Source: Nocardioides daedukensis
GTDB lineage: Bacteria > Actinomycetota > Actinomycetes > Propionibacteriales > Nocardioidaceae
DNA: 64,000 nucleotides
Assembly (NCBI RefSeq): GCF_013408415.1
Contig: NZ_JACCAA010000001.1
Location: forward strand, 2,852,001-2,916,000
Direction: 5' to 3'
In this document: positions 12,396 through 57,944 of the stretch, one piece after another
How positions within the stretch are numbered: the stretch's first letter is position 1
Layout of the letters: every line of letters begins with the position of its first letter
The notes under the pieces: model-generated
What the model saw: only the letters and a program-made list of their open reading frames with translations
What the model was told of the DNA's origin: nothing
The model's database searches: none
Translations under genes and position numbers: made by a program

Positions 12396-12407
12396 CCCCG
12401 GCCCTTT

Positions 12408-12546
12408 CGCCGACCCGTCGCGAATTGTCGTTCTGACCCTCGCTGACCCGTCGTGAGTTCGCGTTCTGGCTCCCGCTGACCCGTCGCGAGTTCGCGTTCT
12501 GGCTCGATCTTCCGGGCGCAGAATGCGAATTCACGACGGGTCAGCG
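12408..12546. repeat. Family-1 repeat: three 33-bp direct units plus one inverted unit
   Basis: Units at 12408-12440, 12441-12473 and 12474-12506 each begin CGCyGACCCGTCG and continue with GTTCTG-type sequence. An inverted copy at 12517-12546 (AGAATGCGAATTCACGACGG core) can pair with the third unit through a 10-base loop. It begins 12 bp after the crotonase stop. Confidence 0.85.
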
Positions 12547-12552
12547 ATTTGG

Positions 12553-12618
12553 CCCGCAACAACTGGCGGTTCGACGCTCAAGAACTGCAGGTTCGACGCG
12601 CAACAACTGCAGGGTGGT
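12553..12618. repeat. Family-2 repeat: three tandem 22-bp units
   Basis: Units at 12553-12574, 12575-12596 and 12597-12618 follow the pattern CGCGCAACAACTGCAGGTTC plus GA, with a few substitutions. The array ends two bases before the stop codon of the minus-strand thioesterase gene (12621). The same unit occurs at 27455-27617 and 57699-57830 and, in hybrid form, at 16771-16855. Confidence 0.88.
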
Positions 12619-12620
12619 GG

Positions 12621-13142
12621 TCAGTGGGCGGCCATCACGCCGCACAGCGGGGGTTGCCAGTCGACGACGGGTTGATCGGCCAGGACCTTGTCGAGGCCTG
12701 AGGCCACGTCGTCGGGGAACGGCTCGATGCGGCGGGCCTCGAGACTGACGTGGGCGAGCACCAGCTCGAGGGTGTTGGCGACCAGACGCCGGGCCGGATC
12801 GACGAGATAGCAGATCATGTGCGCGGTCTTCGCCGACCGGGCGAGCAGCTGCGGATGTACGGCGATGCTGTCGCCGAGCCTGAGCTCTGCCGCATAGCGG
12901 ATGTGGTGCTCGAGGGTGAAGACCCCGAGACCTCGCTCGGCTCGATAGGCGTCGTCGATGCCGGCGAGCGTGCACAGGTCATCCGCCGCCCAGGAGTTGA
13001 GGTCGAGGTAGTAGCGGATGTTCATGTGGCCGTTGTAGTCGAGGAAGTCCTCGCCCACGCTGGCGGTGCGCGTCGCCGGGATCTGGGTGACCTGCTCATA
13101 GGTGGGCAGGGGGATCCGTGGCGGCGCAGAAGGAGCTGACAT
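12621..13142 (-). CDS. Hotdog-fold acyl-CoA thioesterase
   Basis: From ATG 13142 the protein has 173 residues: MSAPSAPPRIPLPTYEQVTQIP, then VGEDFLDYNGHMNIRYYLDLNSWAADDLC, GVFTLEHHIRYAAELRLGDSIAVHPQLL, and VLAHVSLEARRIEPFPDDVA. DYNGHMN is the active-site loop of the 4-hydroxybenzoyl-CoA/YbgC-like thioesterase group. An in-frame TTG at 13169 would add nine residues. I prefer ATG because a possible -10 (TATCCT) lies about 6 bases upstream of it, which would give a leaderless mRNA. It is divergent from an ACAD gene and probably releases CoA from stalled acyl-CoAs. Confidence 0.85.
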   Translation of the reverse strand: MSAPSAPPRIPLPTYEQVTQIPATRTASVGEDFLDYNGHMNIRYYLDLNSWAADDLCTLAGIDDAYRAERGLGVFTLEHHIRYAAELRLGDSIAVHPQLLARSAKTAHMICYLVDPARRLVANTLELVLAHVSLEARRIEPFPDDVASGLDKVLADQPVVDWQPPLCGVMAAH

Positions 13143-16770: not shown

Positions 16771-16855
16771 CCCGCCGACCCGGCAGTTGTTGACACCTGA
16801 TCGTGTCAACAACTGCCGGGTCGGCGGTGTGGGGCGTCAACAACTGCCGGGTCGG
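16771..16855. repeat. Hybrid family-1/2 hairpin plus third copy at convergent junction
   Basis: A 25-bp perfect inverted repeat (16772-16796 and 16803-16827) with a 6-base loop is followed by a third, partial copy at 16836-16855. The unit starts like family 1 (CCGCCGACCC) and ends like family 2 (GGCAGTTGTTG). It fills almost all of the space between the racemase stop (16766) and the TetR stop (16856), and should form a very stable stem in RNA from either strand. Confidence 0.9.
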
Positions 16856-26695: not shown

Positions 26696-27454
26696 ATGAC
26701 CGACACCGCATCCACCGAGTTCACGGGCAAGACCGTCCTGATCACCGGCGGCAGCCGGGGGATGGGCGAGCAGATGGCGCACGCCTTCGCCGCACGCGGA
26801 GCCAACATCGTGGTGGCGAGCCGCAAGCTGGAGAACTGCCGCAGCGTGGCCGACGACCTGGTGCGCAAGCACGGCGTACGCGCCTTGCCGGTGGGCTTCA
26901 ACGCCAGCTCGTGGGAGGACTGCGACCGGCTGATCGAGGAGGCGTACGCCGAGTTCGGCAGCGTTGATGTGTTGATCAACAACGCCGGGATGTCGCCGCA
27001 CTACCCCTCGCTCGCCGAGGTCAGCCAGGAGCTGTTCGACAAGGTGATCGCGGTGAACCTGCGTGGTCCGTTCCGGCTCAGCGCCGTGATCGGCGAGCGG
27101 ATGGCCGAGGGTGACGGGGGCTCGATCATCAGCATCGGGTCCATCGAGGCGATCCGTCCGCAGCCCGAGGCGCTGCCCTATGCGGCCGCGAAATCGGGGC
27201 TGCACGTGTTCACCGAGGGCTTCGCGCAGGCATACGGTCCGAAGGTGCGGGTGAACACGATCCAGGCCGGCCCCTTCCTGACCGACATCTCCACGAACTG
27301 GTCCGAGGGGCTGCGTGAGGAGATGGAGGCCAAGGTCGCTCTCGGTCGCTGCGCAGAGGCCGACGAGATCGTCGGCGCCGCACTCTATTTCGCCGGTTCG
27401 GCGTCGTCCTTCACGACCGGTGCGCTGCTGCGGGTCGACGGCGGCTGGAAGTAG
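26696..27454 (+). CDS. Short-chain dehydrogenase/reductase
   Basis: A 252-residue classical SDR: TVLITGGSRGMGEQMAHAFAARGANIVVASRK, INNAGMSPHYPS, IISIGSIEAIRPQPEALPYAAAKSGLHVF (catalytic Tyr/Lys) and GSASSFTTGALLRVDGGWK at the C-terminus. AAGGGGAACC precedes the ATG. It is the final gene of the 17803-27454 series. Its TAG stop is followed directly by a family-2 repeat array. Confidence 0.91.
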   Translation: MTDTASTEFTGKTVLITGGSRGMGEQMAHAFAARGANIVVASRKLENCRSVADDLVRKHGVRALPVGFNASSWEDCDRLIEEAYAEFGSVDVLINNAGMSPHYPSLAEVSQELFDKVIAVNLRGPFRLSAVIGERMAEGDGGSIISIGSIEAIRPQPEALPYAAAKSGLHVFTEGFAQAYGPKVRVNTIQAGPFLTDISTNWSEGLREEMEAKVALGRCAEADEIVGAALYFAGSASSFTTGALLRVDGGWK

Positions 27455-27617
27455 CCGCGAACCTGCAGTTGTTGCGTCGCGAACCTGCACTTGTTGCGCG
27501 TCGAACAGGCGATTGTTGTGGCTTGAACCTGCAGTTGTTGTGGTCGGCGAGCGCAAGACTTGCCGGTTCAATGCGCAACAACTGCAGGTTGGACGCGCAA
27601 CAACTGCAGGTTCGCGG
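27455..27617. repeat. Family-2 22-bp repeat array filling a convergent junction
   Basis: The 163 bp between an SDR stop (27454) and an IclR stop (27618) consist wholly of family-2 units: four forward copies (first core CGCGAACCTGCAGTTGTTGC at 27457-27476), a diverged middle, then two inverted copies. The outermost arms, 27455-27476 and 27596-27617, are perfect 22-bp inverted repeats. No other sequence is present. Confidence 0.93.
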
Positions 27618-28388
27618 TCAATGGGTGAGAAGGGCGGTGGTTTCCAGGGCCGCGCGACGGACCATCGGGGCAAACTTCTCCACGGGGGCGTCAGGACCCC
27701 GTAGCGCTACGGAGATGGCTCCCAGCGGGCCGTGCGGTCCGGTGACCGGGGCGGCGACGGCGCGCATGTCGGTGCGCATGTCCGCGGGGGTGAGCGCGAG
27801 GCCGTGGCGGCGACGGATCGGACCCAGGCGACGGTGAAGCCTGGCCCGGGCCCGCGGCGAGATGGATCCGGGCTCGTCATAGAGGCGATCCACCTCCTCG
27901 GGGTGCATGCAGCCGAGGATGGCCAGGCCGCTGATCGTGCGGTGGGCCCGGATCTGGATGCCGACCCGGGACGGGATGCTGGCCCCGGCCGGACCGCCGA
28001 CCTTGTCCAGGTAGACCACGGCATTGCCGTCGAGCACCACCAGGTGCACCACCGCCGAGGTCGCCAGGTGCAGCTCGTTGAGCACGTTCGCTGCGGCCGC
28101 GCGCAGGTGCGCGTGGTCGAAGACGCGGCGACCGACCGCGTGCATCCGCGGCCCGAGGCGATATCCGCGCTCGTCGTGATCGATCCATTGCATCTCGACC
28201 AGCTGGCGCAGCAACCGGAAGGTGGTCGACCGGGGCAGTCCGGTCAGGCCGGAGACCTCCTCGAGGAAGAGGTGGTCGGGCCCGTGCGTGAACACATCGA
28301 GGATGTCGGTGAGGCGCTCGATCACGCCGGGTCGTGGTGCTGGCGGTGCGAGCTGGGTGGTGGCGGGTTCTGCGGCAAGTGCGGTCAT
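27618..28388 (-). CDS. IclR family transcriptional regulator
   Basis: A 256-residue IclR protein: winged-helix part VIERLTDILDVFTHGPDHLFLEEVSGLTGLPRSTTFRLLRQLVEMQWIDHDERGYRLG (about 22-80) and the IclR effector domain with VVHLVVLDGNAVVYLDKVGG and PSRVGIQIRAHRTISGLAIL. GGAGGG lies 9 bases before the ATG. It is divergent from the FadD19-like gene across 146 bp containing a dyad, so it likely controls that operon. Confidence 0.93.
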   Translation of the reverse strand: MTALAAEPATTQLAPPAPRPGVIERLTDILDVFTHGPDHLFLEEVSGLTGLPRSTTFRLLRQLVEMQWIDHDERGYRLGPRMHAVGRRVFDHAHLRAAAANVLNELHLATSAVVHLVVLDGNAVVYLDKVGGPAGASIPSRVGIQIRAHRTISGLAILGCMHPEEVDRLYDEPGSISPRARARLHRRLGPIRRRHGLALTPADMRTDMRAVAAPVTGPHGPLGAISVALRGPDAPVEKFAPMVRRAALETTALLTH

Positions 28389-48858: not shown

Positions 48859-49117
48859 CTAACTGATGGGTTGGGGTCGGTGGTGGCGGTAACTGATGGG
48901 TTCGGGGTCCGTTCAGGCTGATTTGGCCGCCCAAGACATCAGTTAGGTGAGCCGGTAGCCCTAAGGCATCAGTTGGTTGGGTTCGGCATCGCTGAGCGGT
49001 AACTGATGGGTTGGGGGACTGATCAGGCTGATTTGGCCTCCCGAAGCATCAGTTAGTCGAGACCGCGACCCCAGGGCATCAGTTAGACGAGCCCTGAGCC
49101 CCAACCCATCAGTTAGG
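48859..49117. repeat. Family-3 repeat array, 30-bp units in both orientations
   Basis: Eight copies of TAACTGATG (or its complement CATCAGTTA) occur. Forward copies start at 48860, 48890 and 49000; reverse copies start at 48937, 48967, 49047, 49077 and 49107. Neighbouring copies in a block are exactly 30 bp apart. A 56-bp segment (48891-48946) is duplicated at 49001-49056 with few changes. The array occupies most of the 371 bp between the convergent IclR and hsaB genes; nothing else is seen there apart from the terminator. Confidence 0.9.
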
Positions 49118-49135
49118 CCGCCAGGGGCCGAAGAG

Positions 49136-49844: not shown

Positions 49845-49899
49845 GCAGGACAGGGGCAGGAAAGGGGCAGGACAGGGGCAGGACAGGGGCAGACAGGGC
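49845..49899. repeat. 11-bp G-rich minisatellite in hsaB-hsaD divergent promoter
   Basis: Four units of CAGGGGCAGGA type, exactly 11 bp long, place GGGG at 49853, 49864, 49875 and 49886; a shorter G3 tract follows at 49896. The plus strand thus reads G4-N7-G4-N7-G4-N7-G4, a formal G-quadruplex motif. It sits between two divergent steroid genes. Confidence 0.9.
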
Positions 49900-49946
49900 C
49901 AGCGCCTCCCGGTGATCGGGATCGCCGCCAGCCCCGCCGGCGCAGG

Positions 49947-56205: not shown

Positions 56206-57719
56206 CATCCAGCGACCCCGCCGGGACTGACGCCGGGACTGGCCCACGGCCTACTGGTGCGCCGGTCCCGGTGGCCGACGTCGAGTTCGACCACGAGGTC
56301 GACGTCGTCGTGGTCGGCTTTGGCTGTGCCGGAGCGGCCGCTGCACAGGCAGCGGCCCTGGCCGGCGCCTCGGTGGTTGTGCTGGAACGCGCCTCCGGCC
56401 CGGGCGGATCCTCGGCACAGTCCGGGGGTGAGCTCTATCTCGGCGGCGGGACCGCTGTGCAGCAGGCGTGCGGCTTCGCCGACGACGCGGACAACATGTT
56501 CGCCTATCTGGCCTCGGCGCTCGGGCCCAACGCCGACCTCGACAAGCTGCGGCTCTATTGCGACGGCAGCGTCGAGCACTTCGAATGGTTCCGCGAGTGC
56601 GGGGTGGAATTCACCGAGTCGCTCTATGACGCGCCGACCTGGATGCCGCCCACGCAGGACGGGCTGATGTGGCTGGGCGAGAACGCCTGGCCCTACACCG
56701 AGCAGGCCCGACCCGTTCCCCGCGGCCACCGGCCCTCGACCGAGGGCTGGGCCGGTCACACCGTGATGGCGGCGCTGGTCGCTGCGGCCGGCTCCGCCGG
56801 AGTCGAGACGCACGTGGACACCCGCGCGACCTCACTGGTCGTGGACGGGGACGAGGTCGTCGGGGTGGTCGCGCGGAAGTTCGGTGAGAGTGTCAGCTAT
56901 CGCGCCCGCAACGGCGTCGTGCTCACCACGGGTGGTTTCGTCGACAACGAAGACATGCTGGCAGACCACGCTCCGGCGCTGCTCGGGCACGGCAAGGTCA
57001 GTGATGGGCTCGACGACGGCTCCGGCATCGCGCTGGGCCAGTCGGTCGGCGGTGCGATCCGCCGGATGGCCTCGATCGAGGTCGCCTACACGGCGCTGCC
57101 GGCAATGCTGGTGCGCGGGATGCTGGTCAACGGTCTCGGCCAGCGCTTCATCAACGAGGACGCCTATCCGGGCGTCTTCAGCCACGCCGCGTTCCACCAG
57201 CCCGGCCCGTGCTGGGCGATCGTGGACGAGGCCGGTCTGGAGTCGATCCCCGAACAGGACCTCTGGGGTGTGCGGCCGCAGCACGCCGCCGAGACCCTGG
57301 CCGAGCTGGAGATCGACCTGGGTCTCCCGATCGGTTCCCTGGAGGCAACGGTCGGGCTCTACAACCGGCACGCCGCCGACGGCGTGGACGGGCTCTTCCA
57401 CAAGAACCCGAAGTGGGTCCGGACCCTCGAAGGTCCCTGGGCCGCCGTCGATCCCCGGCTCGGCTTCGCGCCGGCCGGGAGGACCGGCCAGACACCGGGC
57501 AGCGGCTTCTCCGGGTTCACCCTCGGTGGATTGAGGACCAGCGTCGACGGGGAGGTCATCTCCCTGGCCGGGGCACCGGTCCCCGGTCTCTTCGCCGCCG
57601 GACGGGCTACTTCCGGCATCCACGGTGACGGCTACGTGTCCGGTACGTCGCTGGGCGACGGCACCTTCTTCGGCCGCCGCGCAGGGCGGACCGTCGCCTC
57701 GCGAACCGGCAGTTGTTGA
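56202..57719 (+). CDS. KstD-like FAD dehydrogenase with repeat-encoded C-terminus
   Basis: A 505-residue flavoprotein from GTG 56202, overlapping the hsaC stop. VDVVVVGFGCAGAAAAQAAALAGASVVVLERASGPGGSSAQSGGELYLGGGT is the FAD fold; later segments are NGVVLTTGGFVDNEDML, GQRFINEDAYPGVFSHAAFHQ and LFAAGRATSGIHGDGYVSGTSLGDGTFFGRRAGRTVA. The Tyr of YPGPG is not conserved in the same context. The final residues (SRTGSC) and the TGA are coded by the first unit of a family-2 repeat, so the original end may have been altered. Confidence 0.85.
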   Translation: MTSSDPAGTDAGTGPRPTGAPVPVADVEFDHEVDVVVVGFGCAGAAAAQAAALAGASVVVLERASGPGGSSAQSGGELYLGGGTAVQQACGFADDADNMFAYLASALGPNADLDKLRLYCDGSVEHFEWFRECGVEFTESLYDAPTWMPPTQDGLMWLGENAWPYTEQARPVPRGHRPSTEGWAGHTVMAALVAAAGSAGVETHVDTRATSLVVDGDEVVGVVARKFGESVSYRARNGVVLTTGGFVDNEDMLADHAPALLGHGKVSDGLDDGSGIALGQSVGGAIRRMASIEVAYTALPAMLVRGMLVNGLGQRFINEDAYPGVFSHAAFHQPGPCWAIVDEAGLESIPEQDLWGVRPQHAAETLAELEIDLGLPIGSLEATVGLYNRHAADGVDGLFHKNPKWVRTLEGPWAAVDPRLGFAPAGRTGQTPGSGFSGFTLGGLRTSVDGEVISLAGAPVPGLFAAGRATSGIHGDGYVSGTSLGDGTFFGRRAGRTVASRTGSC

Positions 57720-57830
57720 GCGTCGAACCTGCAGTTGTTGCGCGCTGAACAGGCAATTGTTGAGCGTCGAACCGGCAGTTGTTGGTCGTCGAGCCTGCAG
57801 TTGTTGCGCGCCGAACAGGCGATTGTTGAG
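57699..57830. repeat. Family-2 repeat: six tandem 22-bp units
   Basis: Units run exactly at 57699, 57721, 57743, 57765, 57787 and 57809, each close to CGTCGAACCTGCAGTTGTTG plus two bases. All are in the same orientation. The first overlaps the end of the flavoprotein gene and supplies its stop codon; units 3 and 6 share the variant GAACAGGC(A/G)ATTGTTG. The next 114 bp to the HsaA-like stop (57945) show only a short AACGG/CCGTT dyad. Confidence 0.92.
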
Positions 57831-57944
57831 GTTCTAACGGATCACCCGTTGTGGACCCAAACCGCGGGCGTACGCCGACTGGCGGGGCGCCCGCGTGCGT
57901 CGTGCGGCCGGCACGGGCTGAGCACCCTGCCGGGCGCCCTCGAC

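Follow-up and report, generated by a model that had tools for sequence, protein, structure and literature searches.

The 163-bp spacer between the convergent genes for a short-chain dehydrogenase (SDR) and an IclR-type regulator in Nocardioides daedukensis is probably a gene-less, i.e. non-autonomous, copy of a REP/RAYT-like repeat system that is built on an unrelated nuclease. The spacer lies in the window analysed here, a 64-kb stretch of the genome designated G000, and is composed as follows.

26696–27454, + strand: SDR gene, host flank outside the element; its TAG stop ends at 27454
27455–27617, no strand assigned: whole two-sided element, filling the convergent SDR/IclR spacer (163 bp)
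27455–27457: CCG, left edge of the element
27455–27476, + strand: left terminal inverted repeat, CCGCGAACCTGCAGTTGTTGCG
27458–27545, + strand: forward array of four 22-bp units, the first beginning 3 nt past the SDR stop
27546–27548: GGC centre between the forward and inverted arrays
27549–27614, − strand: inverted array of three 22-bp units, the first beginning 3 nt past the IclR stop
27596–27617, − strand: right terminal inverted repeat, the exact reverse complement of CCGCGAACCTGCAGTTGTTGCG (22/22)
27615–27617: CGG, right edge of the element
27618–28388, − strand: IclR-type regulator gene, host flank outside the element, convergent with SDR; its stop codon starts at 27618

As the initial annotation had described, 22-bp units occupy this spacer from stop to stop, to which we add the three trinucleotides; the order is CCG, four forward units, GGC, three inverted units, CGG. 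The described succession of forward copies, a diverged centre and inverted copies was recovered as well, the diverged unit (27549–27570) being the inner member of the inverted array that adjoins the GGC centre, and so was the perfect 22-bp inverted pair at the spacer ends. A repeat search of the spacer returned 64-nt arms with 83% complementarity, and an Rfam search of the 64-kb window gave no match. Chance is excluded as a source of the repeats, since the 22-bp core motif, for which 0.03 occurrences are expected in the window, has 17 matches there, and the exact core occurs 70 times in the 3.81-Mb genome against once for the reversed pattern.

The spacer is one of ~30 loci of the 22-bp family in G000, where 38 arrays with 156 units were examined. 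Placement was assessed for 53 arrays read in the window and at 42 loci, 38 of these arrays being in G000 and the others in the congener G003 and in Nocardioides sp. Soil797, relative to genes called by a simple codon-usage script whose start codons are approximate. An array start between −3 and +5 nt from a same-strand stop codon was found for 32 of the 53 (one at −3, the others at 0 to +5), and seven further arrays reach back 18, 40 or 62 nt into the gene, a TGA within the unit serving as the stop. Other arrays lie just past a terminator-like tail or upstream of a divergent gene, at 17–90 nt from its start codon. Arrays begin, in other words, at a functional boundary and point inward to non-coding space; CCG often precedes the first unit, and many arrays in G000 are one-sided. 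A stricter rule, by which an array follows a stop codon in the direction of transcription, was dropped because arrays also lie after terminators and upstream of promoters. Likewise discarded were tRNA 3′ ends as anchors, an idea that came from gaps of 70–77 nt beside arrays: no tRNA occurs there, and these gaps precede the start codons of divergent genes. In G118, which has a different unit and is one of the genomes compared here with G003, G080, G105, G113, G154 and G158, 20 of 30 arrays are downstream of a same-strand stop, 18 of these within 27 nt. As a separate observation, a transposase-like gene has seemingly inserted inside a 22-bp element (L017:3367–4614) and another stands beside the parent of the 31-bp family described below, downstream of the nuclease gene (L141), as if the arrays were safe landing sites for such genes.

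Further arrays in the window comprise other members of the 22-bp family as well as two sister families.

12410–12545, no strand assigned: 33-bp sister family, three forward units and one inverted, in the same convergent spacer as the next array
12552–12617, − strand: 22-bp family, three inverted units that directly adjoin the stop of gene 12621–13142 (− strand)
16777–16854, no strand assigned: 31-bp sister family, one unit forward and two inverted, with convergent genes on either side
57702–57833, + strand: 22-bp family, six forward units, made up of a 66-bp block and its duplicate

The genome holds three unit families (22, 31 and 33 bp), and each of them has a flanked nuclease homologue of its own; the parents of the 33-bp family, which has 60 copies versus none in the control, and of the 31-bp family are encoded at G000:C1:997424–998371 and G000:C1:3721663–3722526, respectively. 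Two of the families share the convergent spacer 12396–12620, the 33-bp units extending from the left gene end and the 22-bp units from the right. At the rightmost array, gene 56271–57719 runs into the first unit and takes its stop from the TGA inside it; L015, L019 and L045 show this −18 overlap as well. An additional inverted array family with periods of 30 and 110 bp (TAACTGATGGGTT / CATCAGTTA) fills the intergenic space at 48860–49118, with no parent nuclease identified for it, and positions 49845–49902 hold ~5 copies of an 11-bp tandem repeat, GCAGGACAGGG.

The single candidate parent of the 22-bp family is the gene P0003 beside map in G000, flanked on each side by a five-unit array facing inward, with CGAACCTGCAGTTGTTGCGCGT as its own unit. 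Its 317-aa product joins an AbiEi-like DNA-binding domain to a DUF559/Vsr-like nuclease: it matches the PADLOC AbiEi profile (2.5e-11, residues 21–205) and Pfam AbiEi_1 (5.8e-07) as well as DUF559/MTES_1575, and a PDB profile match to I-Bth0305I (3r3p) is weak (E 0.016). Residues E200, D232, E243, D245, H250 and D258 are conserved in 52–58 of 58 homologues, with E200, D232, H250 and D258 nearly invariant among these proteins. Judged from ORF lists alone, the nuclease is the single gene between the arrays of the map element in both G000 and G003, and no AbiEii (DUF1814) toxin gene lies there. Only G000, G003, G105, G154 and G158 (5 of 211 congeners) have an orthologue with 60% identity or more, the next homologue having 54%. 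The association between parent and arrays is strong. G000, G003, G154 and G158 (182, 23, 10 and 32 unit-core matches, respectively) are the only genomes of the genus with at least 10 matches and all four carry such an orthologue; G105, the fifth carrier, has a diverged 22-bp unit at map and Ino1. Given that no nuclease homologue was found in the phage collection and that plasmid matches are distant, the parent looks chromosomal and mostly vertically inherited.

Arrays also accompany more distant nucleases. Among 47 homologue loci, chosen by similarity to P0003, tandem arrays flank the gene on both sides at 22 and on one side at 14, while any comparable tandem repeat was present at 6/24, 2/25 and 5/26 control loci; homologues below ~36% identity to P0003 mostly lack arrays. 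Periods span 20–35 bp, being mostly 22 bp and otherwise 20–26 or 31–35 bp. Left and right units of the same element, compared in inverted sense, match at 0.80, as against 0.48 (sd 0.09) between elements. A logo of thirty-one 22-bp units retains a shared CGARnnG and carries 14.5 bits of information, versus a maximum of 9.6 in 200 shuffles given the same treatment. Unit similarity tracks protein similarity (Mantel r 0.48, 0 of 2000 permutations), a correlation for which shared ancestry alone could suffice. The pairing of unit and nuclease also had predictive value: the unit beside the G118 homologue pointed to ~80 extra copies scattered over that genome, giving 89 matches in G118 versus 6, 4 and 7 in three congeners, with reversed-pattern controls of 1–3. 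Of the homologues sampled across the class, those from other families are in some cases array-flanked (e.g. L201, L203 and L207) and in many not. The units of these three loci share GTGATCATGCAC at periods of 22 and 32–33, hinting that one core may exist at two unit lengths. At L230, in G080, more than ten 22-bp units lie on one side only, downstream of the nuclease gene; the same genome has a second, 62%-identical homologue with a different unit.

Orthologous sites differ among species in the presence of arrays and in their units. At the Ino1/aminotransferase junction, arrays separate the Ino1 stop codon from a hairpin terminator in G000, G003, G154 and G158, each genome having a unit consensus of its own; in most other congeners the stop is followed by 15–35 nt and the hairpin, without arrays. 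The native terminator stands between the two Ino1 arrays; therefore, arrays can arise independently. At map, many congeners have a convergent P450 gene 10–30 nt downstream and no arrays, the same gap in G003 holds arrays and one gene, and G113 has a 54%-identical homologue at this very site, with a different unit. Between G000 and G003, orthologous arrays resemble one another less (0.64–0.67) than do arrays within G000 (0.75), most units lying nearer to the consensus of their own species. Either the units have been rewritten in concert across each genome, or insertions have recurred independently at the same places. The SDR/IclR junction itself was absent among the 25 best IclR loci of relatives, the closest IclR protein having 57% identity.

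We weighed several other accounts of these arrays. They could serve the host as operator or boundary sites of the AbiEi-nuclease, in autoregulation, defence or the insulation of gene ends, and have been spread by selection rather than by selfish copying. Upstream arrays at most ~150 nt from the nuclease start codon, as in AbiEi autoregulation, would suit this, as would the position of arrays at the edges of transcription units in two or more species and the intact, conserved nuclease. We nevertheless consider it unlikely, as arrays are patchy among close species, most congeners lack them at the orthologous Ino1 and map sites, and the adjoining genes seen here (SDR, IclR, map, P450, Ino1) share no role. 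It is improbable that the inverted arrays, where convergent genes end, terminate transcription in both directions or stabilise mRNA. A 201-nt RNA spanning the spacer folds at −114 kcal/mol (z −9) and stop codons precede most arrays, but a search for an intrinsic terminator (GC hairpin plus T tract) found no match in 27300–27800, the Ino1 array is followed by a separate hairpin terminator in four species, and many arrays are one-sided, upstream of promoters or past existing terminators.

The initial annotation had attributed the junction to rewriting by repeat expansion, rather than to simple insertion of an element. Part of this view stands: nothing resembling a classical transposon with a target duplication was seen, higher-order repeats of 66 and 44 bp attest to local duplication, units in orthologous arrays are species-specific, and unit identity within arrays (0.751) is marginally above that between arrays (0.744). 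Expansion of a pre-existing spacer as the sole origin is, however, contradicted and, as a full account, very improbable, because the unit recurs at ~30 unrelated loci with a defined common outer end (CCG|CGAAC), units of one array are hardly more similar than those of different arrays, the same 22-bp arrays flank the parent gene, and orthologous map and Ino1 sites are array-free. Least credible is a classical transposon or MITE mobilised by a standard transposase of DDE or HUH type, with the AbiEi-nuclease as a mere passenger: terminal inverted repeats and gene-less derivatives would fit, but the nuclease is the only gene between the arrays at map, unit sequence follows nuclease sequence, target duplication was not seen, and the transposase-like genes noted at two loci seem to have entered existing arrays later.

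The preferred reading, a gene-less copy of a nuclease-based repeat system, draws on likeness to several known systems. REP units are imperfect palindromes tagged GTAG or CGTC, REPINs are mobile REP doublets, and RAYTs, the REP-associated tyrosine transposases, belong to the IS200/IS605 type. RAYT genes are flanked by inverted REPs, a dispersed intergenic repeat often found directly past the RAYT stop codon (PMC2817692). The present system shares with REP/RAYT a cognate gene flanked by inverted repeat copies (as at map and in the 47-locus set), gene-specific repeat families, inverted doublets and a mainly chromosomal location. It differs in its enzyme, which combines AbiEi with DUF559/MTES_1575, in units that are mostly tandem direct repeats starting with CGAR rather than hairpin palindromes and measure about two or three helical turns, in an inversion that lies between arrays and not within the unit, and in its occurrence in Actinobacteria. 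The MIRUs of mycobacteria are likewise short actinobacterial intergenic repeats adjoining stop codons, oriented with the upstream gene; they are set apart by description, differing in length and sequence, and to our knowledge have no nuclease parent. With AbiE type IV toxin-antitoxin systems the nuclease shares the related AbiEi DNA-binding domain and, as candidate sites, repeats close in length to the ~23 bp of AbiE, yet here the map arrays enclose no separate toxin gene, the protein ends in a C-terminal nuclease domain and the candidate sites form multi-copy arrays scattered over the genome. I-Bth0305I, a free-standing EDxHD homing endonuclease with a long target, couples a Vsr-like catalytic domain to a DNA-binding region (PMC3943268), as the present nuclease may do, but homing endonucleases act at one allelic site, while the arrays are dispersed at non-allelic gene ends.

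AbiEi and Rv2827c bind 23-bp repeats near their own promoter (PMC7319586), which makes one protein per 22-bp unit a reasonable inference. Each unit would then be one putative binding site of the AbiEi-like domain, and a spacing of about two or three helical turns could let monomers align along an array. The nuclease may cut at, or beside, arrays, and the ensuing repair may copy units to other gene-end sites and homogenise them; the system would thus work as REP/RAYT does, with an unrelated enzyme. Arrays would persist where they are least harmful, i.e. past stop codons, past terminators and upstream of promoters. Some points count against this account. Movement has not been seen, nor has a target-site duplication at map or Ino1, although replacement of the spacers there extends right to the stop codons. 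The many one-sided arrays are unlike a simple transposon bounded by terminal repeats, the two Ino1 arrays stand on either side of the native terminator, the parent looks chromosomal and mostly vertical, and the match to I-Bth0305I is weak.

Open-access papers, to which our search was confined (subscription papers and preprints lay outside it), contained no description of the system or link between AbiEi-DUF559 proteins and repeats, none treated AbiEi together with DUF559, and the paper returned for DUF559 with tandem repeats was unrelated in content. More tentatively, the system may represent a new class of actinobacterial selfish repeat system, in which AbiEi-fused nucleases recognise helix-phased tandem arrays of 21–35 bp, disperse them to gene ends and rewrite all copies in a genome as protein specificity drifts, each lineage having its own cognate families. 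It would offer a candidate explanation for many unexplained intergenic repeats in high-GC bacteria and a candidate role for AbiEi-DUF559, an abundant uncharacterised protein group, and would be an independent instance of REP/RAYT logic with an unrelated enzyme. Dozens of natural protein–site pairs with divergent specificities make the pairing of unit and protein testable, and genome-wide concerted turnover could show how such repeats are copied.
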